Origin: Deltaproteobacteria bacterium
Lineage (GTDB): Bacteria; Desulfobacterota; Desulfobacteria; Desulfobacterales; Desulfosarcinaceae
Assembly: GCA_021824175.1 (NCBI GenBank)
Contig: JAKALP010000006.1
Coordinates: 62,001-126,000 of the forward strand
DNA length: 64,000 nucleotides
Direction: 5' to 3'
Below, in pieces: positions 42,664 through 62,573 of the stretch. Position numbers and translations under genes: made by a program. The notes beneath the pieces are model-generated. The model saw only the letters and a list, made by a program, of their open reading frames with translations. It was not told the origin of the DNA and did no database searches. Each line of letters opens with the position of its first letter. Within the stretch, counting starts at the first letter, position 1.

Positions 42664-43872
42664 TTACTCATACCGCAATGCTTCAATGGGGTCCAGGCGC
42701 GCGGCTTTACGCGCCGGAAAGTAGCCGAAGATGATGCCCACGGCCCCCGAGAAGAAAAAGGCCGTGATGATAATATCCGGCCTCAAGATGAATGGCATCT
42801 CAAGCAGATGGGCGCCCACGGCAGCCATGCCCAACCCCGTGATGACGCCGATCAGGCCCCCGAAAGAGGCCAGCACCACGGCTTCCACCAGAAACTGCAT
42901 CAAGACCTGACGCTCCAGCGCGCCGATGGCCAGACGGGTGCCGATCTCCCGGGTGCGCTCGGTCACCGACACCATCATGATATTCATGATGCCGATGCCG
43001 CCCACCAGCAGACTGACGGCCGCCACGGCGCCCAGCAACGCCGTAAGCACTTTGGTCGTGTTGGAGAGCGTGTCGATAATCTCTTTCATGTCATGAACAT
43101 TGAAATTGTCTTCTTCACTGGGGGTGATGCCGCGAAGCTCCCGCAGCAGCCGTTCCAGATCAGCCTTGACCCGCGTGGTGGAGACGCCGTCTTCGGCGGA
43201 AACAATAATGCTGCCCACCTCGGTGTTGCCGGCAATGCGACGGTGAAAGGTGCTGATGGGGATGAGCACGAAATCATCCTGATTGCTGCCGAAGCCGGAA
43301 CCCTTGGATTCCAGTACGCCAATGACCGTGAAGGAGAGTTTGCCCAGCCGGATGCTTTGACCGATGGGATCTTCATTGCCCATCAGCTTCTGCCGGACCG
43401 TGTCGCCCAACAAGCAGACCGCTTGGCCCGAACGCTCCTCGGTGTCGTTAAACACCCGCCCCTCCGTAACCTTCCAATCGCGCACGGTCAGATAGGCGGC
43501 CGTGCTGCCGGTGACGCTGGTGGAGCGGTTGCCGCTGCCGAAGATGGCCTGCATGGGTTTGATGGCCACCGGCGCCGCGGCCCGCAGCCCCGTGATTTGT
43601 TTTTCGATGGCCGCCACATCGGAGAGTTTAAAGGCCGGCGCATCCGAACGCACCCCACCGGTGCGGCGAAAGGCCTGGCCTACCCATACCTGAAGCATAT
43701 TGCTGCCCAGCTTGGTGATATCGCCGGTGATCTTTTCAGTGGCGCCGCTGCCCAGGGTCACCATGACGATCACGGCCGCCACGCCGATGACGATTCCCAG
43801 TACCGTCAGAGATGAACGCAGCACATTGCGGCGAATCTCGCGTTGGGCCAATAAATAGGTTTCCATCAGCAT
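42664..43872 (-). CDS. MacB-like ABC transporter permease
   Basis: 402 residues. An N-terminal membrane helix (LGIVIGVAAVIVMVTLGSG), a large periplasmic domain, and three C-terminal helices (LLGAVAAVSLLVGGIGIMNIMMVSVTERTREIG) ending FPARKAARLDPIEALRYE identify the FtsX/MacB permease family. The ATPase domain of full MacB (about 650 residues) is absent, and no ATPase gene lies beside it. It starts 16 bp downstream of the MacA-like gene, so these two form an exporter pair. The substrate may be the product of the synthase genes upstream. Confidence 0.87.
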   Translation of the reverse strand: MLMETYLLAQREIRRNVLRSSLTVLGIVIGVAAVIVMVTLGSGATEKITGDITKLGSNMLQVWVGQAFRRTGGVRSDAPAFKLSDVAAIEKQITGLRAAAPVAIKPMQAIFGSGNRSTSVTGSTAAYLTVRDWKVTEGRVFNDTEERSGQAVCLLGDTVRQKLMGNEDPIGQSIRLGKLSFTVIGVLESKGSGFGSNQDDFVLIPISTFHRRIAGNTEVGSIIVSAEDGVSTTRVKADLERLLRELRGITPSEEDNFNVHDMKEIIDTLSNTTKVLTALLGAVAAVSLLVGGIGIMNIMMVSVTERTREIGTRLAIGALERQVLMQFLVEAVVLASFGGLIGVITGLGMAAVGAHLLEMPFILRPDIIITAFFFSGAVGIIFGYFPARKAARLDPIEALRYE

Positions 43873-43888
43873 GGTGCCGTGATCCTTT

Positions 43889-45169
43889 CTATTCGGCGGC
43901 CGCTGTATCTACCACCACGGGTGTGCCGGGTTGCAGATCGCCATCGATCATGGCGGTATAAACGCCGTCGGTCAAGCCAGCAGTGACCGCCATGGCGGTC
44001 GGACGGCCATTTTGAAGGACCCACACCAAGGATTGCCCGGTTTTCAACGGGGATTTTAATTGGGCCTCACCTGTGCTATCCGCGGCGCCATTCCGTGATT
44101 TGAACAACCCGCGCTTTTCGGTGGTATCGCTTTGCCGGGAGGGTGAAAAACGCAAGGCCGCGTTGGGAATCTTGATGGTATTGGAAAGGTTTGTGGCCAC
44201 CATTTTGACGGTGGCGGTCATGCCGGGCCGCAGCAGAAGATCGGGATTGTCGACCTTTAGCAAGGTGGGATAGGTCACCACGCCATTGGTGATTTGAGGG
44301 TTATAGCGCTGCTGGACGATCCTGGCTTTAAACAGACGGTCGGGATGGGATTCCACGGTGAAGGTGGCCTCCTTGCCCTCCAGCACCTGGCCCACATCGG
44401 CTTCGTCCACATCCACTTGAAGCTCCAGCTTGGTCAAATCGTCGGCCAGGGAGAAGAGCACGGGTGTCTGAAAGGCGGCGGCCACGGTCTGACCGGGGTC
44501 GATGCTGCGTTTGAGCACGACCCCTTTGATGGGCGACACGATGGTGGTTTTGGATAGACTGGTCTCGTCGATTTTGAGCCGGGCCTGGGCCTGCTGGATC
44601 AAGGCTTTGGCGGCCTCTTCATCCGCTTGGGCTCGCAGCAGGTCGGCTTGGGCCGCTTCCATCTCGCCTTGGGACGGCGCCTTGCCTTCGGAAAGCTCAA
44701 AGACCTGGCGCATGCGCTTCAAGTTTTGGCTTTTCAGCTCGGTGGAAGTCTGGGCCTGGGCCAATTTGGCTTCGGCCGATGCCAGCGAGGCCTTGGATTG
44801 GGCCACGGCCGCCAAAAACTGGGTGTCGTCCAGGCGCGCCAGGACTTGTCCGGCCTTGACATGATCATTGAAATCCACGGCCACGCTTTTTATGATGCCC
44901 GACACCTCACAGCCCACATCCACCTTATTGGTGGGCGTCAGATTACCGGTGGCGCTGATCACAATGGACAGATCGCCGCGTTCCACGGGTTCGGTTTTAT
45001 AATGAATGCGCGCTTTGCCTTTACCGGACAAACCCAGCAACACAATCAACAATACCGGCAACGCAATCAAAGCCAGCACCAGGCCGCGCCGGCCCATTTT
45101 ACTTTTAACCAAGCCAGGGTCGAGCCCTAGCGTATTGACGATCTCTTCTCTTCTATTAATTAGTCCCAT
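43889..45169 (-). CDS. MacA/HlyD-like periplasmic adaptor protein
   Basis: 426 residues. An N-terminal membrane anchor (LVLALIALPVLLIVLLGLSG), the lipoyl-like start with EVSGIIKSVAVDFNDHVKAGQVLARLDD, a long coiled-coil hairpin (about 120-200, rich in A, Q, E), a second lipoyl half with VVSPIKGVVL-like TIVSPIKGVVLKRSIDPGQ, and a beta-barrel domain. It resembles MacA, which joins MacB to an outer-membrane channel. An insert (about 350-380) is low-complexity. ATG 45169 is preceded by GGAG. Confidence 0.88.
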   Translation of the reverse strand: MGLINRREEIVNTLGLDPGLVKSKMGRRGLVLALIALPVLLIVLLGLSGKGKARIHYKTEPVERGDLSIVISATGNLTPTNKVDVGCEVSGIIKSVAVDFNDHVKAGQVLARLDDTQFLAAVAQSKASLASAEAKLAQAQTSTELKSQNLKRMRQVFELSEGKAPSQGEMEAAQADLLRAQADEEAAKALIQQAQARLKIDETSLSKTTIVSPIKGVVLKRSIDPGQTVAAAFQTPVLFSLADDLTKLELQVDVDEADVGQVLEGKEATFTVESHPDRLFKARIVQQRYNPQITNGVVTYPTLLKVDNPDLLLRPGMTATVKMVATNLSNTIKIPNAALRFSPSRQSDTTEKRGLFKSRNGAADSTGEAQLKSPLKTGQSLVWVLQNGRPTAMAVTAGLTDGVYTAMIDGDLQPGTPVVVDTAAAE

Positions 45170-45202
45170 GTAGGATTGGCTCCATTGAATTCTAAGAATT
45201 TA

Positions 45203-45241
45203 CCTCTGCGTTCCTCAGCGACCTCCGCGCCTTTGCGTTAA
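45203..45241. repeat. CTCTGCGTTCCTCAGCG... intergenic repeat
   Basis: The text CTCTGCGTTCCTCAGCGACC and the following CTTTGCGTTAAAA match a repeat frequently seen between genes of this and other bacterial groups (from memory). It fills part of the 105-bp gap between the MacA-like and sulfotransferase genes. Confidence 0.45.
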
Positions 45242-45274
45242 AAAAGGAGGGCCGCGAAGGACAAACCCGTGGCG

Positions 45275-46462
45275 TTACACGCCCTCTTCCTCATAGCCGA
45301 ATTTCAGCAGAACTTCTTCAAAATAGTTTTTAAATTCCGCCTCGCTGATATTGTATTTTTCAAAAGAGTAGCGGTTTTGGCTGACATAGTGCTTCTCCTT
45401 CTTGGATCTTTCGGCCAGGGCCTTTTGGAGTTCTTCCGGGCAACGCAGGCTGAATTGGGTGAGCACTCTTTCCACCGTGGCCTTGGTGTCCGCCACCAGA
45501 TCTTCGAAGCGGATCATGGCATGATGCTTTTGATCGTTGAAGTCAAGCACTTCGAGTGGATAGGTGTATTCAATCTTGAGCATCTGGAATAAAGCGTCTT
45601 TGATGAACTGATCATCCACATAGCGCAAATAGTCTTTGTAGTAAGTCGACAGACTGATCGCCGACGGCGCCACCTTGTAAGGCGTGCGGGTCATGAAGAT
45701 GAAGCGGGCATCTGTGATGTGCGCTTTGAGCGTCAGGATGTAGGTGCTGAAGAGCGGATTTTTGCTCAAATAGATTTTGTGGCGGCCGAATACATAGAGA
45801 TGCTTTTGGATACACCGTTTATAGAACTTCATGTATTTGGCTTTGTATTCAGGGGAGGTGAGCTGATCGAAATTCATGAAAGGGGTTTTGAGTTCAATGA
45901 ACGGAAAGAAAAACAGAAAAAAGGGGGAGTTCCCGCTGTGGTAGAAGAGCATGGCATCTTCTTCGTAATGAAAAAGTCCGGTATCGTGAATCTTCTTAAA
46001 TTCGCCGAAGAGCTTGGCATCAATTTTACGATAGGCGTTGTATAGCGGACTTCCCAGCCAACGGTCCAGTTTGCCGATCTGAAGGTAGAACAGCTTTTGA
46101 ATGATGGCGGGCGCGACATTGAGCTCCCACAACTTCATGGAGGTGATTTCGTCGCTTTTATTAAGCAATTCCAGGAAAAGGCTGGTGCCGCAACGCGGTG
46201 GCCCGACCATGAAGATGGCGCCGTCCGTGGAAATCTTGCGATAGGAGCGAAAGAAGACTTCATCCAGCAAGAAGAAAAACTGCTGGACGATATGATTCAA
46301 AATAATCACCGGCAACAGCAGGAGCAGGTAGCGCCAGGTCGTGGCACCCAGCCCCTTATGCTTGAAGTGGAGCTTGAAAATACGCCATTGCATCTTGTAG
46401 TCAAAAGGTATCATGGGGGTCCGTCCTCTTAATATCTTCCTCTTTGTATCTTCATAGTGCAT
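45275..46462 (-). CDS. PAPS-dependent sulfotransferase-family protein
   Basis: 395 residues. Residues 42-70 are hydrophobic and may attach to the membrane. The 5'-phosphosulfate-binding loop is GPPRCGTSLF (87-96), the standard PxRxGTS form. The 3'-phosphate site is suggested by FMTRTPYKVAPSAIS, and a His-containing W/E region precedes. It should transfer sulfate from PAPS to a hydroxyl group. It starts 3 bp after the stop of the KS-AT-DH synthase gene, with GAGG ribosome site inside that gene, so the two are co-translated. This makes a sulfated lipid product likely (inference). Confidence 0.85.
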   Translation of the reverse strand: MHYEDTKRKILRGRTPMIPFDYKMQWRIFKLHFKHKGLGATTWRYLLLLLPVIILNHIVQQFFFLLDEVFFRSYRKISTDGAIFMVGPPRCGTSLFLELLNKSDEITSMKLWELNVAPAIIQKLFYLQIGKLDRWLGSPLYNAYRKIDAKLFGEFKKIHDTGLFHYEEDAMLFYHSGNSPFFLFFFPFIELKTPFMNFDQLTSPEYKAKYMKFYKRCIQKHLYVFGRHKIYLSKNPLFSTYILTLKAHITDARFIFMTRTPYKVAPSAISLSTYYKDYLRYVDDQFIKDALFQMLKIEYTYPLEVLDFNDQKHHAMIRFEDLVADTKATVERVLTQFSLRCPEELQKALAERSKKEKHYVSQNRYSFEKYNISEAEFKNYFEEVLLKFGYEEEGV

Positions 46463-46465
46463 GCA

Positions 46466-49400
46466 CTACCTCAATAAATCGATTTTCAGTTCGGAAAATT
46501 CTTCCATGGGCAATGGCGCCGCCATGGCCACCGTTTCATTGTGATGCTTGGCCGTCAGCACCGACAGTGGAGTGATATCCCTGGCCACGCCGCCATTGGT
46601 TTTGACGCTGAATTGGCCCGAACTGTTTTGCCGGGCGATGATTTGCGATGGATAAACAAAGATCTTTTTCTGCTGAAGCAAGCCCCTGGCCGCATCCTTG
46701 ATGGCGATATATTCCACCAGGCTCTCCAGCTGTTGCGCCTTGGGCAGTTGGCTCCAATTTTGATACTCGATGGTATGCAAATACAAGCGTGCCACCCAGT
46801 CCGGGTCGATGCCGGCCAGCTCATTGGCATCCAGACCGTAAAAGGCATAATAATCCTGGGCAACGGCCTTATGCTTCTCTTTTTTTCGCGCCAGCAAGCT
46901 CTTGTTGGGGTTTTGCCAGGCGGCCAGCAAGCGCTCGGACCATTTCATGCGCCAGTCGCGCCAGCCCATGATGAGCATGAAGATCTCACCCTCACTGGCC
47001 AGCGCCATGTCAAAGCGCACCAGATTAGAGTCATTGGCGCGGATGATCATCTTGGCCTGGACCGTGGCGCCGGGCGCCGGCGCCGGTTTATAGATCATGA
47101 TGCGTTCGATGGATACCGGCGCCACCCAGTTGTTGCGGGTGTTCATGGCCAGGTCGTAGCAGCAAATCATTTGAGAGGCGGCATCCATGGTTTGGACCGG
47201 CAGAATCATGGTGCGGCCGCTGTGGTTGGCGAAAAAGCCATGCACGGGCGGCACAGTCAGCAGGGCCTCCACGCCGGCATCCGTGGTGTGTAGTATTTTC
47301 TCCAGTCCTTGGAAACAGGCGCCGTGATACAGGCCGCCGGGCCGATACAATTGTTTGGGCTCAATGGGTTCAAAGGTCCGCGTGGCCTTGGGCTCCGGCT
47401 GAATGGGAAGCGGCTGCGCGGCAGCGTAGGGATGGTCGGCCATCAGCACCGTGCCGGTCAGACAACTGTCCGTGGCCGCATCCTCAACGGCCAGGGAACA
47501 GGCCACTTGGATTTCACCGCCGGCTTCTTTTCCCGCGACTTGGGCGCTGATGATCACGCCCTTTTCCGGATGACTTTCAGTCAAGCCGATCCAGCGCTTG
47601 TTGGAAATGCTTTTCAGACCACACACCTGCATTGCCGGAAGAAGGGTTTTGGCAGCCTCGGCAATGAGCTCGATGGCAACGGCCATGGGAAGGGTCGGCA
47701 GCTTTTCTTCGGGCGATTTTACTTCATTGGGGCAGGGAATAAAGGCATGATCTTTCAAAAACAGGTCGGAATTCAAATTCAAGTTGCGCCGGATCACAAT
47801 TTTTTGACCGGCGACGTGCTCGCGGATCTCTCCGACAAAGGGCAGCGGCTCGGGAAACGGCTCGGCCGGCGGACGGGCCATGGTGGGCATCGCCACCGGG
47901 CCGCTTTCCGACAAGATCAATTTGGCCTGGCAGTCGAGCATATTCAGAAAATGAGACATGTCGCTCATCTCATCTTCTTTCTGCATGGCGTAGATGCGGG
48001 TCATGGTATTGATCTGCTCGGCAATGACTTCTTCCCAGGCAGATGTCGGCCGCTCCGCGGGCGCCGGCTTTGGTTCGGCGGGCGCGGGCGATTTTGCTTC
48101 CACAGGTGGTGAAGGCGCTGGAGCCGCCGCTGGCTTTACTTCCGTTTCTATCTTAAGGGATGGGTCCTTGATCTCGTATCGCGGGATGGTCATTTTGAGG
48201 TTGATGGTGAACTCGGCACGCTTGCTCTTGGTCTTCACCGAACGATCCAGGTAGCGGTTGCGATGCTGGTAGAGCACCTCCACATCCACGGGCGTATGAT
48301 GGGCATAGAGACTGGCGATGAGGTGGAGTAATTGATCAAGGGGATGACGGTTGGGCACATCCAGCGATTCCATGATAAAGGCCTTGCCTTCCAGGGTTTC
48401 ATGGATCGGGGTGGCGATTTTGCCGCCGCCGCCCAACTGCACGAAGATCCGCGCGCCTTGATCATAGAGCTTTTCAAACAGCCGCCGCATCTGCACCGGC
48501 AGGATGGCGTTGTCCGCCAGCAAGGTCCGGATTTTCTCGGCGTCGTTGGGAAACTGCTCGGTGGTGGCCGCGCTGTACACCGGAATCTTGGCTTCGCGGA
48601 CTCTCAACCCCTCTAGGCGCTCATAGATCAGATCGGCGATGGGCTTGCACACCGGGCTGTGGATGGGGAAGAGATGCAGGTATTTGGCCCAGATGCCGGC
48701 CTGGTTGAGGATCTTGCAGAAGCGATCCACGCCTTCGCGCGTGCCGGCAAAGATCACCTGCTTGGGCGACAAATCCATGGAACAGGTGACCGTGACCTCC
48801 TGGCGGTTGAATTCATCCAAAAAGGGCCGCAAAGTTTCCATGGGGCATTGGCACAACCCAATGGCGCCTTTGATTTCGTCGATTTCCCGGCCCTGGGCCT
48901 CGGCATCCATCTCCACCAGTTGGTGAATATCCACCATGCCGGCCGCGACCACGGCCGACCACTCGCCCAGGCTGGTGCCGGTGATCATGTCCGGCAAAAT
49001 GCCCAGGCGCGTCATCAGATCATTGCCGGCCGTGTTGGCCACGAACACGCCCGAGGCGGAATTGTCCAGCACGCGCAACTCTTTTTTGAGGGCCACGAAT
49101 TTTTCATGTTCAATGTTAGGGGGCGAAAAAAGGATGGTGCTGTAGCGGTAGGATTTGCCGGCCAAATTCTTCTCTAGGTCCAAATGGTCAAAAAAAAGTC
49201 GGAAGAACGGCAGATAGAGACTGAGCTCGCTCAACCGCTGGGTGTAGTCATCGCCCAGACCGGGAAACGCGTTGCCCGGGAACACGAAGACAATCTTGCC
49301 GTTCTTCTTCAGGGGCTCGTTTTCATAGTAGATAAAATCGGTGCGGATGGGATTCTGCCCATTGGAGGTCCTGAGCCACGCCAGGGCCTTGCCGAGCCGT

Positions 49401-51022: not shown

Positions 51023-51032
51023 AACTTTACCT

Positions 51033-54000
51033 CTATGAGCTGACCGCTGTCTCCCGTTGAATACTTCCCGGCCGGGTCTTATTCAGCTCCTTCTTCATGA
51101 TGGCGGCCACATCGGCGGCTTTGGCGTAGAGCACGCCGGCGCCATCGCTGAAATGGAAATCGAGAATGACTTTGGGAAAGTTGGCGGTTTTCACCACCAC
51201 ATCGCAATGGATCGGGCCGCCGTTATAAGGCCGGTATTGGATATACTTCTTCACATCGCCGGGCAGCGCCATCATGCTGTAGCACTCCTGAATCCATAAC
51301 AGGGAGAGTTGATAGGCGCAGTCAAAGACAACGGGATCAATCAGCCAGGCCCCCTCGGCGGCGGCTCCCAAAATATGCTCAGGAGAAGAGGTTTGCGCCC
51401 GGCCGCGAATCCCATTGTTTTGAAGATCAGCGATCTCAATGCTTTCAATGGTTTTCAGCCCTTTGAACACACCGGTATGAAACAGCCGCTGTTCGTATAC
51501 TTGCTCAATGGATTGATCAAAGCTTCGGCTGTGTTTACTGCTGGAAGGCAACGGGACATGCCCATTCTTCTCCTTGGTGAGAATGACGCAAGCAGAGTAA
51601 TTGCACCGGTGCTCCTGGTCGGGCATGGCCAGGCGCACATCGATGAGCGCGCTTTTATCCGTGGCGCCGCTCTGCTTTTCAGCGGTGACGGTCAGCTTTG
51701 GCCGACCGCCGGAGGGCAGCGTGATGCCTTTGATCAATTTGAAGTCGTGTATTCCTTTGAAGCGGTAACCGGGTAAAGCGGCCATGGCCGCCTGAGCCAT
51801 GATCTCCATAGCCATGGCCGCGGGCAAAACAGCGATGCCGTTGATGCGGTGGTCATTGAGATAAGGGGCTGATGGGTCCAATGTCAGATGCCATGCCGCG
51901 CGCTGATGATCAGTGGTTTCCAGCGGCTCCAACAGGCCGGCCAGGGGCAGCTGGGCCGGCGCTTCTTCCAGATGCACCACCGGCAAACGCTTCTCGATAT
52001 CCCGGGCCCCGAAGATCACCACCTCGGCGGCCCGGCCGGGCTGATTGATTTCGTTTTTGAGCATGCGCGCCCCGGCGGCCCTGGGCAGAAGATAGACACC
52101 GGCCTGGTCGAATTGCTTTTTAACCTGATCGGAGACCATGCCCTCGCCCTCCCACGGTCCCCAGTTGATGGCCATGGCTTTGCCCGGCCATTGATGATTG
52201 ATTTTGACGGCCATTTTGTTGAGCATCTCGTTGGCCGCGGCATAGTCGGCTTGTCCCTGGTTACCGAAGCGGCCCGATACCGAAGAGAAGAAGACTATAA
52301 AATCCAGCATCTCAAAATCGATGGCGCCCATCAAAATACGGGCGCCCTGGACCTTGGTGTCTAATACCCGCTTGAAACTCTCCACCGATTTCTGGGTGAT
52401 CACGCCATCTTTAAGATATCCGGCGGCGTGAATCACGCCATCGATTTTGCCGTGCTGTTGATACACCTGGGCGATCAGTCTTGAAAAAGACTCCTCGTGG
52501 GTGCAATCGCAGGAGTGATAGAACACCTTGGCGTTGAATCGGCGCATCTTGGCGATGTTTTGGCGCGCCTTAAACTCTTTCATCATGGCATTGTAGCGCT
52601 CGTTGACCAGGGCCGGCGCGACCTGAAGTCCCTTGGATTTGAACTCCGCGATAATGCCGGCTTTGGCCTGTTTCGGATCTTGTTCCGCCAATGCCGCTTG
52701 GGTCATGAATTGGTCCAGCTCTTCAGCCGCGCGTTCCGGCAAGGAAGTACGCCCGGTGACGATCAAGGTCGGCGCATACTCTTTGGCCAGCAATGCGGCC
52801 ACATCGGCGGTAATCCCGTTGGCGCCGCCGGTTATTAGAAATACCGACTCGCTGTTAAACCGGCTCGGAACGTTGATTGACGCCAGGGGCTGGTCGGCCA
52901 GGGCCATCTCATGCCGCGTCAGGTTTAAGAAGCCGATCTCCTTGATAGTAGTATTTACTTCGCCGCACTCATTGAGGATCGCCCGGGAGAGCTGTTCCAG
53001 ATCTGCTTGCGGATGCACATCAATGGTCTTGGCTTGCACACCCGGCCATTCATGGAACAACGATTTGGTAATGCCGTGGGGCCCGTTTTGGCCGGCTTCA
53101 AAATCAGCTTCATGATTCAGACCAAAATCCCCGCCCATGCCGCTGACACTCATCCAGAAGAATTGCCGCTTGGCGTAGGGAAGCAAATCACGATCCGCCC
53201 CCAACACCTTGGCCCACAGGAAACTGTGGATCACGGCATCATAAGCGGCCGCGGGAGTGTTTTGCCCCAAAGCCAACATATTGAGAACGCCGGCCGGAGA
53301 ACCATATCTCTTTTTGATCCGCTCGTAGCACTCCTGGTATTCGCTCTCTTTGGAGGCATTGAAACGGAAACAACCATTGTTCTCGCGGGAGGCGCTGGGG
53401 TCCGCCATCACGCGCAGGCACTGCAGCCCCTTTTTACTCGCCTCCATTTGGATATGGAGGGCAAGGGGATGGCCGCCGTCTAAAATCAGGATAAGGCCGT
53501 CAAAGGAACGGGCTTTGTCGAGATGGAGCGGGCGAGGGATGAGCTTGAGCACGTAGCGATGAAACTGCGACCCTTGGTCATTTGGGTTCTCGGCCAGGAC
53601 GGCCTCCCGCGGGGCACCGGCCGCGTCCGGGGTTTCAAACAGTGATTCGGCCCACTGGACCAGGTCCTTTACGGTGGCAATATTCTCATGGGCCAAGCAC
53701 AGGATTTCAGCGTCGCGATGGGCATGCTCGGGATGGGAATCGGCCAAATAGCACATGACGTTTTTGAGGATATCGGTATCCACGCCCAGATCATCTTCGA
53801 GATCCATTTTCATCTCAATCAGCTCGGCTGGATACAGGGTTCTCTCACTGATGGCCTCCACCACCAATTGGGCATACTTTGTCTTGGACTCAGGCGCGCG
53901 GGCCTGCGGCTTTAAAGGCTCCTCCAAAGCTGCTGTCTGCTGGCCGGGGTCGTCGGCGGAAGACGCGGGGACCGCCTCCGGCGCCAAGGTTTTTCCAAAA

Positions 54001-57000
54001 TTCTTATTGATCCACGCGACAATGTGGCCCAGGGTCTTCATCTGGGCCAGCTCTTCGAAATACTTCTCGTCGGCGATGCCGGCCAGGGTGGGGTGGGCAT
54101 TTTGCATCATGCTGATGATCTCCACCCGCTTGATGGAATCGATGCCCAGGTCCCCCTCGATCTGCTGCTCGGGCGACAGCATCTCCACCGGATACTGGGT
54201 GCGCTCGCTGATGACCGCGAATAACAGGGCCTGATAATCAACCCTTGCGTCGGCCGTGGATGTGGCGCTTTTTTTTGGAGGCGCCGAGGCGGCGGCATCA
54301 GCGGTCTCCTGAAAGACTGGCGCCAGACCAAAATTCTTTTCGATCCAACGGACAATGTCCCCCAGGGTCTTCATCTGGGCCAGCTCTTCGAAATACTTCT
54401 CGTCGGCGATGCCGGCCAGGGTGGGGTGGGCGTTTTGCATCATGCTGATGATTTCCACCCGCTTGATGGAATCGATGCCCAGGTCCCCCTCGATCTGCTG
54501 CTCGGGCGACAGCATCTCCACCGGATACTGGGTGCGCTCGCTGATGATTTCAAACAATAGCAATTGATAGTCGATGCTGGCGCCGCTCCGGGGCGCGGTA
54601 GGCATCGCTTGCGCTGCGGGGCCGGCGGCGCCGGCAACGGCCGGGGTTGGCAGCGCGGCACCGAAATTCTTTTGTATCCAGCGGACAATTTCCCCCAGGG
54701 TCTTCATCTGGGCCAGCTCTTCGAAATACTTCTCGTCGGCGATGCCGGCCAGGGTGGGGTGGGCGTTTTGCATCATGCTGATGATTTCCACCCGCTTGAT
54801 GGAATCGATGCCCAGGTCCCCCTCGATCTGCTGCTCAGGCGACAGCATCTCCACCGGGTACTGGGTGCGCTCGCTGATGATATCAAACAAGAGCGCTTGA
54901 TAGTCGATGCTGGCGCTGGTCCCAGGTACGGCGGGCATCGCTTGCATTGCGGTGCCGGCAACAGCCGGGGTTGACGGCGCCGCGCCAAAATTCTTTTCAA
55001 TCCAGCCAACAATATCGCCCAGGGTCTTCATCTGGGCCAGCTCTTCGAAATACTTCTCGTCGGCGATGCCGGCCAGCGTGGGGTGGGCGTTTTGCATCAT
55101 GCTGATGATTTCCACCCGCTTGATGGAATCGATGCCCAGGTCCCCCTCGATCTGCTGCTCGGGCGACAGCATCTCCACCGGATACTGGGTCCGTTCGCTG
55201 ATTATGTCGAATAAGAGTGCTTTGTAGTCGACCGCTTCTATTTTGGGACTCGGTTCCACGGGCCGCGGCGGCACTACCACCTCGACCACGACCGGCTTGG
55301 ACTCAGGCGGCGGGGAAGATGGATAGCTATCGGCCGGCGTGGGAACCGTGCTAAAAAGGGACGCCGCCTCAGACCGGCCCACCGGAGGACTACTCTGGCC
55401 TTGACTTATAATATCAGTGGGTATGGTTTGATCGGCGCCCATGTTCAGGCCGGCCTGGGGCGCGCCGCCGAGCAGGCCTTGCAGCAATTGCTGGTTGATA
55501 TTCCACATCTTTTCCATCATGGCCAACCGTTGCTGATGGAAACGCTCCTGGGTTTCGAGAAAAAGATTCATGCTCTTTTGGAAGTATTTCATCTTCTTTA
55601 ACTTCTCTTCTTCATCTAAGCGTGAAACGGCGCTGGTCCGCGGTGGGGCAGCGGCCGCATGAACGGTCGGGGGCGTTTTTGGAATCGGCGGAGGGCTGGA
55701 AATAGCCGGCTGGGGCGATTTTGCGGTCTTGGGCATTACCGGAGTTGATGTCGGTGCACTGGCGGCGGGCCTGGCGGCCGCCATGGATGCGGCTGGAACG
55801 CTCGCCGGTGGCGGGGTCCAGCGCGGTACTTTAGGGGCCGTCTCTTTCTTGACCCTCAATTTGATGGTGGGTTTGGCCCGGCCGCCATTGACCAGGAAAG
55901 TGGTGGCTGATGGCGCCGGCTTTTGCTTCTCATGGCTAAGGATGCGGCCGCTGAAGGCTGGCTTAAGATCAATATCGTATCCGCGGACATAGAGCGCAGC
56001 CAGACTGTCCAGCAGCATTTCCACGCCCGGCTTGCCTTCCTTTGGCTGGACGGCAATGGCAAGATGGGGCTGGCCGGCCAGGATCGTATCCACGAAATTG
56101 GTCAGGGTTGCGCCCGGACCGATTTCAATAAAAGTGCGCGCGCCAGCGGCGTGCATCTCTTCGATCTCGCCGACGAAATCCACGCCGTTGCGCAGATGTT
56201 TGCCCAGGGTGCCGGCAATGCTGGGGGCGGTTTTGCCGTAAGGCTTGGCCGTCATATTGGCATACACCGGAATGCCGGGAGCATCGAAGTGCTCCTCGGA
56301 CAAGGCCTCGCTCCACTGCTTCTCGGCCGCGGCCATGAAGGGCGAATGAAAGGCCTGGGATACGGGCAATCGTTTGCTACTCCACTTCTGCTCCTTGCAC
56401 AGGGCTTCGAAATTCTCCAGGGCCGCGATACTGCCGGAAACCACCACCTGCTTGGGCGTATTGTAATTGGCGATGGAAAGATCCGGGATGGCCTCGATAT
56501 GCGGCTTTAGGGCATCCCGATGAATCTGCACTGCCACCATGCCCGTGGGGACCTCCGACGACTGGGCCATGCTCCGGCCCCGTTTGCAGGCCAGAGTGAG
56601 CAGTTGGGCATCGCTCATCACGCCAGCGGCCCACAGGGCTGTCAATTCGCCGAAGCTATGACCGGCGGCCATGGCGATTTTCACGTTGAATTGGGCCAAC
56701 AATCGATAGAGCGCCATTTCCACGGCCGCCAGGGCCGGCTGGGCCACGGTGGTCTGGGTCAGGGCCTGCATGGCCGCTTTTCTGGCTTCCTCGCCGTTGA
56801 TCATCGCGGGGAAGATGTAATCGGTCAACACTCCCTGGGCCAGGGGGAAGAACTCCGGCGCCAAGATGGCGTTGGCCTGTTCCAGGCCCTCGCGCACCAA
56901 GGGGAAGACAAGGGATAGATCTTTCAGCATGTGGAGTTTTTGCGCACCCTGGCCGGGGAACAGCGCGGTCAACGGCCCGGGCGGGGCAGTATTTAGCGCG

Positions 57001-59705
57001 CCCCAAATGCCTTCGCCCAGTAAGATGGTGTTTTGGGCCGACCCGCCATGGGCCGACAAAGCGCCCTCCGCCAGCAGCGATTTGCCCTTGACGAGTTTTT
57101 CCTTCAATTGTTGAACGCTATTGACTCTTATGGCCACGCGCAGTGGAGAAGAGCTGGCCAGATTCTGATACCGATAGTGTTCGTACGCCAAGCGGGTCAG
57201 GGAGTGCTCGCTGCGATTCAACAAGGCCAGGGCGGCCTCGATTCGTTTAATCAGGGCCGGGACATCCATGGCGCCGAAGAAGAACAATTCCGAAGGCCAG
57301 AGAGAGGAAGGCAGATCGGCGAGGCCCCGGCACTGACCATCGAACTCTTCCAATATGGTATGAAAGTTGGTGCCGCCAAAGCCAAAGGCGCTGGCCCCGG
57401 CCCGGCGGGGCCGCTCCGGCAGCTTGCGGAACCAGGGCTTGGTTTCCATGTTGACATAGACGCGGGTCTTGGGGTGGGAGACCGCGGCATGGACCTTATC
57501 CACATTGACATGGGCCGGCAGTATTTTGTGATGCAGCGCCAGGGCGGTTTTGATCACACCGATAATGCCCGCCGCGCCCTTGGTGTGGCCGATGGCCGAT
57601 TTGATGGAACCGATGGCGCAGGGCTGGGTAGCGCCGTGCTGCTGTAGTACTTCGTGGAGCGTCTCCAGCTCCACCCGATCGCCCAGCGGAGTGCCGGTGC
57701 CATGGGCTTCCATCAGATCCACGCTGTCGGTCTTAAAGCCGGCGACTTCGTAGGCGCGGTAGATGGCCATCTTCTGACCGCGCGAGACCGGCACGGTCAT
57801 GCCGCTGCCTTTGCCATCGCTGGCGCCGCCTATGCCCTTGATCACCGCGTAAACGCGATCATTGTCGGCAAGGGCATCGGCCAGGCGCTTCAACACCACC
57901 ACGCCGACGCCTTCGCCCAGCACGATGCCGTCCGCGTCGGAAGAAAAAGGCCTGGATTGGCCCGCCACGCTGAGCGCCTTGGTCTTGCTGAAGCAGGTAA
58001 ATCCAAACGGGTGCTGGGAAGCATCCACGCCGCCCACAATGGCGGTTTTGGTGATCCCATAGGCCAACTCCTGGCAAGCCACCTGCAAGGCGGCCATGGA
58101 GGAAGCGCAGGCCGCGTCCATGGTGAAGTTCAACCCATTGAAGTTGAAGCGGTTGGCCACGCGGCCGGCTATCACATTACCCAGAATGCCCGGAAAGGCG
58201 TCTTCGGTCCATTCGGGCAACACCTCGTTGACTGAAGCAAGGACATCCTGGCGAATGGGGTCGGGAATATCTTTGGCGCGGTCCATGTACTCCCTGAGGG
58301 CCGCCCGGATGCTATAGGCCAGTAGAAGATCACCGCCGCCGGCAAACCCGAAGATCACCGAAGTTTTTTCGCGATCAAACTCCCGCCGGTCGTAGCCGGC
58401 ATCGGCCAGGGCCTGCTTGACGGCTTCCAAAGCCAGCAACTGGGCCGGCTCCACATTCTTCATGGAACCCGGCGGAATGCCCCACTCCATGCTATTGATG
58501 GGGATCTCGTCTAAAAATCCGCCCTTGGTGGAGTAAGCCGTGTCTTTGTGATCCGGGTCTGGATGAAAATTGACCGTGGCGCTCCAGCGCTCTGCGGGTA
58601 CATCGCGAATAGTATAAACTTTGGCCAAAATGTTATGCCAGAACCGGTCCAGATTTTCCGCGCCCGGCACGATGGCCGACATGCCGATGATGGCCACATC
58701 CGTGGCTCGAATATCGGCCGCCGAATTTTCTTTTGGATCGGGATGAAAGACTATTTCTTTGACCTCTTGGGGAAGAAGTTCTTTTTGCAAGGCGCCAATC
58801 ATTTCCTGGATGCAGGAGAATTTTTGGCTCAACTCCTGGGCCCAGGCCGCCTCTTCACCCATGAAGCAACGGGCCATGGTCTGGTATTCTTCCACCAGGG
58901 ACAACACCTGCCTCAGACGCGACTCAACCTGATTTTCATTTTCAGGCACTTGCCGGTCCTGATCATTGCAAAGCGTGCGAATACGTTCGATGAGACCAGG
59001 ATAGGCTTGGCTGAGGCGGATGTGCAGCCCACCGCCGATGTCAATGGCTTGGGTTCGGACTCCTGCCTTTAAGGCCTGCAGATCATGCTCCTTGAGATCC
59101 GCCGCAAGTTCCGGCATCAGCAACAGAGCATCGGAGAAAATCGCGCCATCGGCGCCGCCCTTGGCGTATGCTGGTATGCTTTGTGGGCCGACACCTCCCA
59201 TGACCCAAATCAGCTGATCGGTCTTGGGCCGAATACTTGACAACAGCGTTGAATTATTGGTGTCGGCGCAAATCCCGCCGGCTTCCTTGCCACGCAGAAC
59301 AAATCCATCGGGATTAAATTTCTCCATTTGCTGAGCCATTTCATGGGAGTAGATCTCCACGAATAGACGATCGGCCATCTTGCGCGCGGCGGCCATGACT
59401 TTTTTAGAGGGTTGCTTTGGCCAAGCCAGGATCATGGTTGCCACCTTGGCGGAACAAATTTCAGCCGCCAGCCGGTCAAGCACCGCAAGGCTGTCCGGCA
59501 TGATGCGGATGCATCCATTGCGACGGGCCGCGTCATCTTCTGCCATACGCTTCAGTTGGTGGCTGATTCGTATGGACTCGGTGACATATCCAAAATCAAC
59601 GATAACGGTGAAGGGAAGATTTCTCCCCTGGAGAAATCGTTGAATGCGGCGCTCATCGGCGCTCACGCAGGCGGCCAGGGTAAATGGAGTTTTTGGGGTT
59701 ACCAT
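51033..59705 (-). CDS. PfaA-like giant synthase: NPD-KS-AT-ACPx4(+1)-psiKR-KR-DH
   Basis: About 2890 residues. Approximate domains: NPD/enoyl reductase-like barrel (1-230) with GFVLRGKEAGG; KS (335-785) with DAACASS, HGTGT, IGHT; AT (910-1240) with AGHSFGE and AFHS; Pro-rich linker; four near-identical ACPs (1490-1895) each with LGIDSIKRVE; a fifth ACP-like region with VDTD instead of DS (about 1940-2025); structural KR half (2030-2260); KR (2280-2570) with TGGANGI, FSSVSG and DYAAANE; DH (2600-2880) with H-x3-G-x4-P in DHRINGIAVLP and Asp in DPVVFD. This order is that of PUFA-synthase PfaA. ATG 59705 is preferred to 59786, which lies in a hairpin repeat. It acts with the neighbouring acyltransferase and KS-AT-DH proteins. 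Confidence 0.9.
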   Translation of the reverse strand: MVTPKTPFTLAACVSADERRIQRFLQGRNLPFTVIVDFGYVTESIRISHQLKRMAEDDAARRNGCIRIMPDSLAVLDRLAAEICSAKVATMILAWPKQPSKKVMAAARKMADRLFVEIYSHEMAQQMEKFNPDGFVLRGKEAGGICADTNNSTLLSSIRPKTDQLIWVMGGVGPQSIPAYAKGGADGAIFSDALLLMPELAADLKEHDLQALKAGVRTQAIDIGGGLHIRLSQAYPGLIERIRTLCNDQDRQVPENENQVESRLRQVLSLVEEYQTMARCFMGEEAAWAQELSQKFSCIQEMIGALQKELLPQEVKEIVFHPDPKENSAADIRATDVAIIGMSAIVPGAENLDRFWHNILAKVYTIRDVPAERWSATVNFHPDPDHKDTAYSTKGGFLDEIPINSMEWGIPPGSMKNVEPAQLLALEAVKQALADAGYDRREFDREKTSVIFGFAGGGDLLLAYSIRAALREYMDRAKDIPDPIRQDVLASVNEVLPEWTEDAFPGILGNVIAGRVANRFNFNGLNFTMDAACASSMAALQVACQELAYGITKTAIVGGVDASQHPFGFTCFSKTKALSVAGQSRPFSSDADGIVLGEGVGVVVLKRLADALADNDRVYAVIKGIGGASDGKGSGMTVPVSRGQKMAIYRAYEVAGFKTDSVDLMEAHGTGTPLGDRVELETLHEVLQQHGATQPCAIGSIKSAIGHTKGAAGIIGVIKTALALHHKILPAHVNVDKVHAAVSHPKTRVYVNMETKPWFRKLPERPRRAGASAFGFGGTNFHTILEEFDGQCRGLADLPSSLWPSELFFFGAMDVPALIKRIEAALALLNRSEHSLTRLAYEHYRYQNLASSSPLRVAIRVNSVQQLKEKLVKGKSLLAEGALSAHGGSAQNTILLGEGIWGALNTAPPGPLTALFPGQGAQKLHMLKDLSLVFPLVREGLEQANAILAPEFFPLAQGVLTDYIFPAMINGEEARKAAMQALTQTTVAQPALAAVEMALYRLLAQFNVKIAMAAGHSFGELTALWAAGVMSDAQLLTLACKRGRSMAQSSEVPTGMVAVQIHRDALKPHIEAIPDLSIANYNTPKQVVVSGSIAALENFEALCKEQKWSSKRLPVSQAFHSPFMAAAEKQWSEALSEEHFDAPGIPVYANMTAKPYGKTAPSIAGTLGKHLRNGVDFVGEIEEMHAAGARTFIEIGPGATLTNFVDTILAGQPHLAIAVQPKEGKPGVEMLLDSLAALYVRGYDIDLKPAFSGRILSHEKQKPAPSATTFLVNGGRAKPTIKLRVKKETAPKVPRWTPPPASVPAASMAAARPAASAPTSTPVMPKTAKSPQPAISSPPPIPKTPPTVHAAAAPPRTSAVSRLDEEEKLKKMKYFQKSMNLFLETQERFHQQRLAMMEKMWNINQQLLQGLLGGAPQAGLNMGADQTIPTDIISQGQSSPPVGRSEAASLFSTVPTPADSYPSSPPPESKPVVVEVVVPPRPVEPSPKIEAVDYKALLFDIISERTQYPVEMLSPEQQIEGDLGIDSIKRVEIISMMQNAHPTLAGIADEKYFEELAQMKTLGDIVGWIEKNFGAAPSTPAVAGTAMQAMPAVPGTSASIDYQALLFDIISERTQYPVEMLSPEQQIEGDLGIDSIKRVEIISMMQNAHPTLAGIADEKYFEELAQMKTLGEIVRWIQKNFGAALPTPAVAGAAGPAAQAMPTAPRSGASIDYQLLLFEIISERTQYPVEMLSPEQQIEGDLGIDSIKRVEIISMMQNAHPTLAGIADEKYFEELAQMKTLGDIVRWIEKNFGLAPVFQETADAAASAPPKKSATSTADARVDYQALLFAVISERTQYPVEMLSPEQQIEGDLGIDSIKRVEIISMMQNAHPTLAGIADEKYFEELAQMKTLGHIVAWINKNFGKTLAPEAVPASSADDPGQQTAALEEPLKPQARAPESKTKYAQLVVEAISERTLYPAELIEMKMDLEDDLGVDTDILKNVMCYLADSHPEHAHRDAEILCLAHENIATVKDLVQWAESLFETPDAAGAPREAVLAENPNDQGSQFHRYVLKLIPRPLHLDKARSFDGLILILDGGHPLALHIQMEASKKGLQCLRVMADPSASRENNGCFRFNASKESEYQECYERIKKRYGSPAGVLNMLALGQNTPAAAYDAVIHSFLWAKVLGADRDLLPYAKRQFFWMSVSGMGGDFGLNHEADFEAGQNGPHGITKSLFHEWPGVQAKTIDVHPQADLEQLSRAILNECGEVNTTIKEIGFLNLTRHEMALADQPLASINVPSRFNSESVFLITGGANGITADVAALLAKEYAPTLIVTGRTSLPERAAEELDQFMTQAALAEQDPKQAKAGIIAEFKSKGLQVAPALVNERYNAMMKEFKARQNIAKMRRFNAKVFYHSCDCTHEESFSRLIAQVYQQHGKIDGVIHAAGYLKDGVITQKSVESFKRVLDTKVQGARILMGAIDFEMLDFIVFFSSVSGRFGNQGQADYAAANEMLNKMAVKINHQWPGKAMAINWGPWEGEGMVSDQVKKQFDQAGVYLLPRAAGARMLKNEINQPGRAAEVVIFGARDIEKRLPVVHLEEAPAQLPLAGLLEPLETTDHQRAAWHLTLDPSAPYLNDHRINGIAVLPAAMAMEIMAQAAMAALPGYRFKGIHDFKLIKGITLPSGGRPKLTVTAEKQSGATDKSALIDVRLAMPDQEHRCNYSACVILTKEKNGHVPLPSSSKHSRSFDQSIEQVYEQRLFHTGVFKGLKTIESIEIADLQNNGIRGRAQTSSPEHILGAAAEGAWLIDPVVFDCAYQLSLLWIQECYSMMALPGDVKKYIQYRPYNGGPIHCDVVVKTANFPKVILDFHFSDGAGVLYAKAADVAAIMKKELNKTRPGSIQRETAVSS
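54020..55240 (-). repeat. Four near-identical tandem ACP-encoding repeats within the giant synthase
   Basis: The 190-base stretch that encodes each ACP helix II-III core (starting AGGGTCTTCATCTGGGCC on the plus strand) recurs at 54031, 54364, 54697 and 55021, spaced 333, 333 and 324 bases (111, 111, 108 codons), with only a few base differences. Linkers between copies diverge. This is direct tandem duplication kept uniform by gene conversion or recent origin. Confidence 0.92.
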
Positions 59706-59752
59706 CTGTTCTTGCCTTTTTCTGATAAAAGTCGTTCGCCGATGGCGCCATA

Positions 59753-59809
59753 GCCGCGAATGCGGGAGCCCGAATGCTTGAAGCATTTTCGGATTCCCGC
59801 ATTCGCGGC
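59753..59809. repeat. 57-bp hairpin (GCCGCGAATGCGGGA) upstream of the giant synthase
   Basis: A perfect 15-bp stem, GCCGCGAATGCGGGA (59753-59767) with TCCCGCATTCGCGGC (59795-59809). Within it AATGCTT-g-AAGCATT forms a second stem. It lies in the 184-bp gap between the acyltransferase and giant-synthase genes. It resembles REP elements built on 'attcccgc', and in the mRNA would form a strong structure. Confidence 0.8.
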
Positions 59810-59889
59810 GCTGAAGAACTTTGCAAACCTAACAACCTTGAAATTACGACTACACCGAAGACCATCAACCCAAACCATTTGTCCGGCCA

Positions 59890-61416
59890 TCATGCGCTGG
59901 CCATTTTATTGATCTTTGACAGCTGCAGGTCCAGGGTTTTCAACCGGTCCATCTCGGCGCTCAACATGGCTCCGGTCATTTCCGAAGTTTCTTTGGGGAA
60001 GTCGGCACCCAGCACGGCGGGACGCAACGGCGTCTTGTACATCTCCCACAGCACGCTGGTGTCTTTCACTCGGCCCAGCTTGATGAGCTCAGCCACGGCC
60101 GATAAAAAATGATAGTTGGCATCGCCGCTTTGTTTGTTGGTGCAGATGGCTTGGTGCGGCTTGCCATCGAGAATGCGCCGCACAAACATGGTCAGTCCGT
60201 CCGAAGGCCCGATCTCAACAAAAGTCCGCACCCCGTCGGCGTGCATCTGGTTGATCTGATCGACAAACCGCACCGGCTTTAAACAGCTGACCGAAATGAC
60301 TTTCTTATAGAGAGCCGGATCGTTGGCCAATTTGTTGCCGAAAAGATAGGAGTAGAAATCACAATCAGATTTGCGGAACTCTTCTTCGGCAATATAATCC
60401 ATGAATTGATTGCTGGCTCTCAAAGACAACGGGCAATGGGGAGCCGCGCTGATGGGAATAAGTTTGCTCTTGATCGATGCTTCGGCCAGGATCTGCTTTG
60501 CTTCCTTCATATTCTCCCGTTTGCCGGATAACACCGTCACGGCCGGCGAGTTATGATTGGCGATCCACACCTCTTTGATGTTGTGCTTTTTCAATAACCC
60601 TCGGATTTTTTTAGGCTCGGCGAAAACCATGAGAATGCCGCCCTGGGACGCCATGGGGCAGGCCGCCGCATGAACACCGCGAAAGCCGGCGAAACGGATC
60701 ATCTGTTCGGAAGAGATGATGCCGGCCGCGCAATAGGAGGCCGCATCCCCCGCGCTGTGCGAGGCAATGGCATCGGGTTTGACGAACATGGAAGCGAACA
60801 TCACGCGAATCGATTCACTCATCAAATTGATGGCCGGCATGGACCAATCGGTGCGGGAGAGGTGGTCGGCCTGAAAGGAGGCCTCTTTTTGATCGCGCGC
60901 CTTGGGAGGAAAGACTACTTCATTGATGGTCTTGCCGTTAAACGCGAAGGAGCCCAAATTTTCCCAGACGGCGCGCATCTGCGGATAGATTTCCGAAAGC
61001 GGTTCTCCCATACGCACATATTGAGCGCCTTGGCCCGGGAAGATGAAGGCCATCCTGCCTTCCGGCTCGCCGAATCCGTAGTATAAGCCAGCGGCGTCGA
61101 AGCTGAAAGCCTCATGGGGTTTTTCCTCGATCATTTTGATCAGCTGGGCCAGCTGGCGTTTGAGCTCAAGCACACCATAGGCGACCACGGCGGCTCGATA
61201 CTTTTTAGGAGATTGCGCGTCGCTATAAATACTTTGGGAATGATACGAAATCCACTTTATCCCCGAGGTGTGACAAATATCTTCTCCGTCTAGTACGCGA
61301 TGCATTTTATCTATAAGCGCGTCTGCCGTTGCATCCGAAAAAACAACGAGCTCACAGATCGACCTTGATCGGTCCCGGCCTTCTTTGGGGAATTCCATCG
61401 CATAACTCTTTTCCAT
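59890..61416 (-). CDS. Free-standing PfaB-like acyltransferase
   Basis: 508 residues from ATG 61416 (ribosome site GAGG, eight bases away). The first 110 residues resemble the linker that joins KS to AT in modular synthases (LVVFSDATADALIDKM). The AT follows with FPGQGAQ (127-133), active Ser S221 in SHSAGD rather than GHSxGE, and a His at H327 (APHCPLS) where others have AFHS. Both motifs are altered, as in the PfaB group. It would load or release acyl chains for the synthases. It is the first gene of the run. Confidence 0.85.
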   Translation of the reverse strand: MEKSYAMEFPKEGRDRSRSICELVVFSDATADALIDKMHRVLDGEDICHTSGIKWISYHSQSIYSDAQSPKKYRAAVVAYGVLELKRQLAQLIKMIEEKPHEAFSFDAAGLYYGFGEPEGRMAFIFPGQGAQYVRMGEPLSEIYPQMRAVWENLGSFAFNGKTINEVVFPPKARDQKEASFQADHLSRTDWSMPAINLMSESIRVMFASMFVKPDAIASHSAGDAASYCAAGIISSEQMIRFAGFRGVHAAACPMASQGGILMVFAEPKKIRGLLKKHNIKEVWIANHNSPAVTVLSGKRENMKEAKQILAEASIKSKLIPISAAPHCPLSLRASNQFMDYIAEEEFRKSDCDFYSYLFGNKLANDPALYKKVISVSCLKPVRFVDQINQMHADGVRTFVEIGPSDGLTMFVRRILDGKPHQAICTNKQSGDANYHFLSAVAELIKLGRVKDTSVLWEMYKTPLRPAVLGADFPKETSEMTGAMLSAEMDRLKTLDLQLSKINKMASA

Positions 61417-62009: not shown

Positions 62010-62573
62010 CTACAGCCGGTCATTGCTTTCCTGCAAAATACCCATGCCCACATAGATATAGTGCAGTCCAGAGATGGTGGTGACCACGGCGGTGGTCCAC
62101 TGCAGCAAAAGATCAAGGAGTGTCATTTTGGTACCGGTGGGATCAAAGAGCGAGGCCATCACCAGCAGGATCTGCGCCGCGGTGGTGCATTTGCTGACAA
62201 TGGAGGGCCGCACTTCGTACTCTTTTTCAGTGATGGTAAAAATAGCGATGCCCAGACTGATGATTACATCCCGCGCAATGACGATGACGGCTACCCAATC
62301 AGGGATCACATCCATTACTACCAGCACAATATAGGCCGAGACCAGCAGTAATTTGTCGGCGACTGGGTCCAGGATTGCTCCCAGGGCGGTACGCTGATTG
62401 AGGTAGCGCGCGATGAAGCCGTCCAGGCCGTCGCTCAGCCCGGCCACGGCAAAGACAAGCAGGGCATGCGTGTAACGATGGTGCAGCATCAAAATAATAA
62501 AGATCGGCGTGAGCAGAATTCGGATGATGGTCAGCACGTTGGGAATGCTGATGGGAGAATGAAAGCGGCTCAA
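62010..62573 (-). CDS. pgsA: CDP-alcohol phosphatidyltransferase, PgsA type
   Basis: 187 residues, five or six membrane helices. The CDP-alcohol motif D-G-x2-A-R-x8-G-x3-D-x3-D is complete: D51 G52 A55 R56 G65 D69 D73 (DGFIARYLNQRTALGAILDPVADK split across the loop). It should transfer a phosphatidyl group to glycerol-3-phosphate for phosphatidylglycerol synthesis. The name is likely but related transferases differ little in motif. It is 13 bp after the FlgT-like gene on the same strand. Confidence 0.88.
   Translation of the reverse strand: MSRFHSPISIPNVLTIIRILLTPIFIILMLHHRYTHALLVFAVAGLSDGLDGFIARYLNQRTALGAILDPVADKLLLVSAYIVLVVMDVIPDWVAVIVIARDVIISLGIAIFTITEKEYEVRPSIVSKCTTAAQILLVMASLFDPTGTKMTLLDLLLQWTTAVVTTISGLHYIYVGMGILQESNDRL

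Follow-up and report, generated by a model that had tools for sequence, protein, structure and literature searches.

A Pfa-like synthase pair, a sulfotransferase and a MacA/MacB-like adaptor and permease in a Desulfosarcinaceae bacterium: candidate genes for a sulfated long-chain envelope lipid

We analyzed a stretch of 64,000 nucleotides (hereafter the window) from a Deltaproteobacteria bacterium of the Desulfosarcinaceae (assembly GCA_021824175.1, contig JAKALP010000006.1, positions 62,001 to 126,000), in which a run of six open reading frames (ORFs) on the minus strand at 42664-61416 encodes a free acyltransferase (AT), two large synthase proteins (SynA and SynB), a sulfotransferase, an adaptor and a permease, in this order. 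Our best explanation, which we hold with moderate confidence, is that this genome has two loci for a sulfated long-chain envelope lipid, the run being one of them, and that the lipid would be built iteratively, O-sulfated and exported. ORFs and Pfam domains agree with a preliminary description, made from the sequence alone, as to the six genes, their common strand and their order. The features are, in the direction of the run:

59890..61416, minus strand: free acyltransferase, a PfaB-like AT (Acyl_transf_1, 1.6e-22; SHSAGD serine loop at 219)
59753..59809, minus strand: hairpin between the AT and SynA genes, covering SynA's first ATG
51033..59786, minus strand: SynA, 2917 amino acids (aa), with an apparently degenerate NMO-like N-terminus, ketosynthase (KS), AT, four acyl carrier protein (ACP) domains, ketoreductase (KR) and dehydratase (DH), from Pfam and TIGR02813
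46466..51022, minus strand: SynB, KS-AT-DH, 1518 aa, from Pfam, catalytic motifs and its clade in the KS tree
45275..46462, minus strand: sulfotransferase of the type using 3'-phosphoadenosine 5'-phosphosulfate (PAPS), 395 aa (Sulfotransfer_3, 1.8e-16; 61.5 bits against a cut-off of 27)
43889..45169, minus strand: MacA-like periplasmic adaptor, HlyD family (HlyD_D23, 4.3e-19)
42664..43872, minus strand: MacB-like permease without ATPase domain (MacB_PCD, 2.8e-52; FtsX, 6.7e-18)

The score of SynA against TIGR02813 (omega_3_PfaA; 1298.8 bits, cut-off 1010.1) places the run among the Pfa-like synthases, as had been proposed; it is not an archetypal pfaABCDE cluster. KS, AT, PP-binding (four stretches), KR (3.1e-40) and PKS_DH_N domains of SynA all lie above their Pfam cut-offs, and the corresponding motifs are present (KS Cys/His/His, AT Ser/His, four LGIDSI, KR YAAAN and DH HxxxGxxxxP); by eye, a fifth ACP-like stretch, without the serine, follows the fourth ACP. 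SynB has KS, AT (42.2 bits, cut-off 32.7) and PS-DH above the Pfam cut-offs, with the KS Cys loop at 204, His at 340 and 377, and the AT motif GTSLGE at 682, while the first catalytic His of its DH was not matched by the motif pattern. The free AT passes the Pfam cut-off for its AT domain and aligns with the AT region of TIGR02813 PfaA at 3e-51, far under the family cut-off. Thus the KS Cys-His-His set is kept in SynA and SynB and the AT serine in all three proteins; AT histidines of the usual type, missed by the motif pattern, are visible by eye in SynB and the free AT. The domain plan given earlier for the giant protein (KS-AT-ACPx4-KR-DH), its KS-AT-DH partner and the free AT is thereby confirmed. 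Membership among the Pfa-like secondary lipid synthases calls for at least one KS, an ACP, a KR and a KS related to PfaA, tandem ACPs being usual but not required (PMC3098273); all of these are found here, tandem ACPs included. SynB has a single KS and is KS-AT-DH rather than the archetypal KS-CLF-DH2 PfaC, where CLF is the chain-length factor, and no match to the PfaE phosphopantetheinyl transferase was found among the six proteins of the run, the rest of the genome not having been searched.

One part of the earlier domain reading did not hold. An "NPD" domain had been placed at the N-terminus of the giant protein, where we find only a weak partial NMO match (residues 124-230; 15.8 bits, cut-off 28) that looks degenerate, and this sub-threshold match is all that the run offers in the way of PfaD. 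By eye, an EAGG motif is followed by Ile, while the NMO-/PfaD-type proteins of the same genome have nearby a His, which presumably has a role in those proteins. The best solved-structure match of the domain is an enoyl-ACP reductase at an E-value of 0.48, and hhalign against NMO/PfaD proteins (two sequences) gave no usable score. A similar N-terminus, 30% identical, also occurs in genome G182; the domain is thus conserved, although it probably does not work as an enoyl reductase, and we see no other candidate for this activity in the run. Elsewhere in the genome, contig C42 (~204000-236500) carries further Pfa-like genes, among them two ORFs with KS matches (2158 and 2371 aa) and one for a PfaD-like protein of 583 aa.

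In a tree of 47 KS domains, SynB falls in a clade of 10 rows (100/100) and SynA in a group of 11 rows (98/94), both apart from the common PfaA of the order (26 rows); bootstrap values had not fully settled, and the rows from genomes G261 and G233 are long branches of unsure placement. The SynA-like group includes G180 and G201, in which the giant stands in a different setting with a phosphopantetheinyl transferase, a MurJ-type flippase and an O-antigen-ligase-like gene (from seven G180 proteins scanned and no G201 proteins); these two are outside the count of ten loci given below.

The sulfotransferase gene begins 3 bp after the SynB stop, as described earlier, and its assignment as a PAPS sulfotransferase is likewise upheld. 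In its PPRCGTS loop, R90, G92 and T93 are invariant in 13 of 13 aligned sequences, as are R259, S267 and S270. Such motifs are named the 5'-phosphosulfate-binding (5'-PSB) loop and the 3'-phosphate-binding Arg/Ser, and both parts of the PAPS site are therefore present. A hydrophobic segment at the N-terminus (residues 37-64 by hydropathy), which by eye is present in relatives too, suits a membrane-bound lipid acceptor. Two APS (adenosine 5'-phosphosulfate) kinase matches occur in the genome, one in a 572-aa protein that by eye joins ATP sulfurylase and APS kinase, and the host is probably able to make PAPS. Because dsrA is present above its cut-off, sulfate is likely central to the energy metabolism of the host, which is likely a sulfate reducer.

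Of the exporter proposed earlier, the adaptor and the permease stand. The adaptor has HlyD_D23 and RND_mfp above their cut-offs, while PRK11578 MacA (5.2e-49) is under its cut-off. The permease shows MacB_PCD and FtsX only, both above the Pfam cut-offs, and, unlike MacB, has no ATP-binding cassette (ABC) ATPase domain. Four permeases from related loci share 74-85% identity with it, and in the alignment of the five (window, contig C22 and relatives) residues 276-332 are invariant except at positions 300 and 319.

The KS C-terminal family has 14 matches in this genome, and two of them lie on contig C22 in a paralogous locus (112000-140000; L045 and L046). Here the order is outer-membrane efflux protein (OEP), membrane fusion protein (MFP), ATPase, permease, SynA, SynB, a PF01663 phosphodiesterase, an alpha/beta hydrolase, a small Sulfotransfer_3 protein (202 aa), a 565-aa protein of unknown kind whose N-terminus is hydrophobic, and an AT. 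The MFP, permease and AT are 58, 74 and 41% identical to their window counterparts. The C22 locus thus has the complete set of OEP, MFP, ABC ATPase and permease, and encodes the ATPase and channel that are absent from the window run; the invariant permease segment is compatible with, and no proof of, an ATPase common to both loci. Because only 19 columns align in a profile comparison, the window and C22 sulfotransferases look like different subfamilies. Two TetR-like genes lie upstream of the C22 locus.

The main chemical rival is a release reaction like that of CurM and the olefin synthase (OLS) pathway, in which the beta-hydroxyl of an acyl-ACP would be sulfated and a hydrolase would then cause the chain to lose both its carboxyl and its sulfate group, so that the final product is a sulfate-free terminal alkene. 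The mechanism is described for OLS (PMC3903477), and the intact KR of SynA would yield the beta-hydroxyacyl-ACP that it needs. A search of solved structures with the window sulfotransferase sequence (P0003) alone gave no match; the profile of its family matches the CurM sulfotransferase 4gbm (3.9e-9) and 4gox, a polyketide-synthase sulfotransferase (9.9e-5). This match is unspecific, because 2zq5 and 2z6v, which we take to be mycobacterial Stf proteins, score best, and tyrosine, steroid and alcohol sulfotransferases match too. At C22 an alpha/beta hydrolase does stand beside the small sulfotransferase, but among its 143 relatives of solved structure the best 60 are enzymes such as esterases and epoxide hydrolases, and the window run has no hydrolase or thioesterase match at all. 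The window sulfotransferase is moreover a stand-alone protein, not joined to an ACP, so that the run shows no sulfotransferase-thioesterase module, and an alkene needs neither an exporter nor a hydrophobic N-terminus. We regard this route as decidedly unlikely.

Returning to the sulfated envelope lipid, the coupling of the three functions recurs in other genomes. In G008, of the same genus, the order is SynB-sulfotransferase-MatE-permease, with SynB, sulfotransferase and permease at 75, 73 and 85% identity, and tight spacing: 23 bp at the first junction, an overlap of 4 bp at the second and 20 bp at the third (permease start from the alignment); a MatE-family protein occupies the adaptor's position, and the contig ends before SynA. 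The C22-type locus is kept with its exporter in G008 and G006, and without it in G315, which belongs to another family. Related synthases occur in G146, G369, G233 and G261. In G261 the synthase is split, with KS-AT, KR and DH on separate ORFs and one KS, and its neighbors are a Sulfotransfer_3 protein, a VTT protein, a flavin mononucleotide (FMN) oxidoreductase, a LolA-like carrier, an FtsX/MacB permease and an ATPase. The LolA-like protein (L144, 16145-16921) adjoins the synthase-linked ABC permease; such a neighbor suggests lipid delivery to the outer membrane. G233 carries a 335-aa Sulfotransfer_3 protein, a glycosyltransferase, a nucleotidyltransferase, a radical SAM protein and an MFS_2 transporter, together with a small sulfotransferase, a hydrolase and a phosphodiesterase. 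G146 has an ATPase, two FtsX-type permeases, a UGT-like glycosyltransferase and two hydrolases, and G369 an ATPase and an FtsX permease.

The glycosyltransferases at G233 and G146 bear on another alternative, that a sugar or polyol head group is sulfated first and the chain joined later, giving a sulfated glycolipid whose chain is not directly sulfated. The mycobacterial sulfolipid offers a precedent, with trehalose 2-sulfate as the acceptor (PMC4183827). No glycosyltransferase match was found in the window run, its scanned neighbors or the C22 run, and we consider this order of events very unlikely.

We compared ten loci (the window, its own C22, two of G008, and one each of G006, G315, G233, G261, G146 and G369) with twenty control windows around the common PfaA, which were chosen on contig room before their neighbors were seen; control L280 is cut by a contig end, and G182, whose contigs end within the synthase, is outside the ten. 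The profiles used (25 sequences for the large sulfotransferase, 20 for the small one and 78 for the permease) all came from outside the ten loci. A sulfotransferase lies near the synthase in 8/10 loci and 0/20 controls, and a MacB/FtsX-type permease likewise in 8/10 against 0/20. The hypergeometric value of 7.7e-6 makes the contrast look stronger than it is, since these loci are related to one another: about five lineages are represented, and the C22-type loci and G233 have a phosphodiesterase-hydrolase-small-sulfotransferase module in common. Length differs as well, the test windows (10.9-45 kb) exceeding the controls (11.9-19.9 kb), though the sulfotransferase is at most about 7.5 kb from a synthase ORF in each of the eight loci. 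On G110:C156, a common-PfaA contig that was not picked, a sulfotransferase match lies about 25 kb from the KS, beyond the size of the control windows. Taken with C22 and G008, these counts partly support the earlier interpretation, in that the coupling of synthase, sulfotransferase and exporter recurs; the case is weaker among more distant homologs of the sulfotransferase and among the permease's relatives elsewhere, which mostly lack a synthase in the neighborhoods examined.

A number of observations weigh against a lipid pathway encoded by the whole run. No ATPase and no outer-membrane factor (TolC) was found in the run or ten scanned neighbors; with a permease and an adaptor only, the window run is not a complete MacAB-TolC locus, and this part of the exporter claim fell. 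Two of the gaps exceed 100 bp (AT-SynA 103 bp and sulfotransferase-adaptor 105 bp, against 10 bp for SynA-SynB, 3 bp for SynB-sulfotransferase and 16 bp for adaptor-permease), and the first contains a strong hairpin, which weakens the case for co-transcription. The G+C of the sulfotransferase gene is 0.472 against 0.574 for the synthases, so that this gene may have joined the others later. In G146 and G369 the synthase and permease come with no sulfotransferase in the stretch seen, G315 has no exporter match in 34 kb, and G233 no MacB/FtsX match in 45 kb. Full-length SynA/SynB was found in 0/29 neighborhoods of more distant sulfotransferase homologs (own genome, G008 and G261 excluded; 7 on contigs under 7 kb), two of which (L094 and L103) have small KS-type matches, and in 0/20 further neighborhoods of the small sulfotransferase, where L241 has small KS-type ORFs. 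Among the best 80 of 578 permease relatives in named genomes, a set that did not include the window's own lineage, 79 loci are without a synthase; the other (L187) has KS/AT-like matches at 25-32%, and 76 of the 80 have an ATPase match on the locus. Synthase-free exporter operons also occur in 20-kb stretches of G002 and G009. In the neighborhoods examined, homologs of both sulfotransferases and of the permease are thus mostly without a synthase.

These neighborhoods, the gaps of 103 and 105 bp and the lower G+C would also fit neighbors with no common function, namely a general MacAB-type efflux pump and a sulfotransferase for some other acceptor, placed here by insertion. Such a chance assembly would have to account for 8/10 and 8/10 loci against 0/20, reached with different sulfotransferase subfamilies and permeases, and for the short SynB-sulfotransferase gaps of two different species (3 and 23 bp). 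We judge it unlikely, and keep the sulfated lipid as the preferred explanation.

Strong P0003 matches within the family occur in 2/30 genomes (own and G008), and matches at E<=0.001 in 44/389 genomes of the class. A genome-wide search with P0003 gave no match in G146, G369, G006, G182, G233 or G315, of which G006, G233 and G315 carry other sulfotransferase types despite this. The sulfotransferase alone was rejected as a marker of the system, given the 0/29 neighborhoods with SynA/SynB. The C22-type small sulfotransferase occurs in 41/389 genomes of the order. Together with phosphodiesterase-like ORFs it is found in 10/20 stretches (L240-L259; in L244 they are >8 kb apart), perhaps as a separate module, and in G195, G284, G209, G080, G120 and G067 it lies in open frames of 876-952 aa.

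With regard to transcription and starts, the pattern scan found no minus-strand terminator-like sites in the 103-bp and 105-bp gaps; overall it gave 13 promoter-like sites against 10.4 expected and 36 terminator-like sites against 23.1 expected (sd 4.5). The hairpin is strong: the segment 59740-59820 folds at -45.3 kcal/mol, with a z of -6.08 relative to shuffled sequences. At <=3 mismatches, one match to a 24-base part of the hairpin occurs in the window. Because the annotated start of SynA (59786) sits inside this hairpin, the true start may be Met28 at ~59705. In the AT ORF the first in-frame ATG is at 61431, and the next, at 61416, is preceded by a GAGG stretch. A gene for an M24 peptidase lies 168 bp beyond the permease; upstream of the run, a CDP-alcohol phosphatidyltransferase is encoded at 62010-62573 and a LipL46-like protein at 62587-63768 (NF033164 3.7e-9, far under the cut-off).

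We propose that SynA and SynB, together with the free AT, would use malonyl units to extend a long acyl chain in repeated rounds on the tandem ACPs, with KR and DH acting. Because the run has no enoyl reductase, the chain would stay hydroxylated or unsaturated, unless a reductase such as the C42 PfaD-like protein works in trans. The PfaB-like AT would probably pass the finished chain to an acceptor; PfaB acts as a terminal acyltransferase (PMC12895367), which fits this role. At the membrane, the sulfotransferase would O-sulfate the lipid or its head group from PAPS. The adaptor and permease would then collect the product on the periplasmic side and deliver it toward the outer membrane, using an ATPase and a TolC-type channel borrowed, most simply, from the C22 locus. 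As it stands, the gene set at two loci suggests an undescribed sulfated envelope lipid. A broader reading, possible but tentative and in our view somewhat short of an even chance, is that a distinct class of Pfa-like synthase pair in sulfate-reducing bacteria makes a sulfated very-long-chain lipid of the outer membrane, and that the recipe of synthase, sulfotransferase and MacB/Lol-type exporter was assembled more than once from non-orthologous parts, in G261 with a LolA-like carrier.

Among the literature matches listed, none ties a Pfa-like synthase to a sulfotransferase: in the available text of PMC6163206 a polyunsaturated fatty acid (PUFA) synthase and a sulfotransferase belong to different pathways, and the text of a 2026 survey of PUFA-synthase hybrids (PMC13291983) has no word beginning with sulfotransfer or sulfat. 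Of the 20 types of Pfa-like synthase, 14 are without a known product (PMC3098273), and gene context gives the present one two testable features, sulfation and export, that could lead to its product class. If true, this would be a Gram-negative counterpart to both heterocyst glycolipids and mycobacterial sulfolipids, in a host probably living on sulfate. Pks2 is the type I synthase of mycobacterial sulfolipid-1. Among the nearest known systems are the secondary lipid synthases of the Pfa-like kind, classed as types A-T by Shulse and Allen (2011; PMC3098273), which likewise have a KS-AT-tandem ACP-KR giant, a PfaB-like AT and a KS partner with DH, and three uncharacterized types of which (C, K and S) are each found in a sulfate reducer. 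Compared with those types, the DH here ends the PfaA-like protein, the partner is KS-AT-DH where the archetype has KS-CLF-DH2, the run gives no match to pfaD or pfaE, and sulfotransferase and MacA/MacB genes are attached. CurM/OLS release also pairs a PAPS sulfotransferase with a type I synthase, but there sulfotransferase and thioesterase act on the carrier-bound chain to give an alkene (PMC3903477), whereas the run has no thioesterase match. Sulfolipid-1 (Stf0, MmpL8; PMC4183827) resembles our system in combining a sulfotransferase, an iterative type I synthase and an exporter for a sulfated surface lipid, and differs in its synthase family, its MmpL exporter and its trehalose head group. 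In the heterocyst glycolipid system the product of a type F Pfa-like synthase is exported by a DevBCA-TolC-type machinery, in which a MacB-superfamily permease works with a separate ATPase, adaptor and TolC homolog (PMC5985334); it has no sulfotransferase in the available text, whereas the window run is without ATPase and TolC. By analogy, we propose that the system would work like the heterocyst glycolipid synthase with DevBCA, plus a sulfation step as in the mycobacterial sulfolipid.

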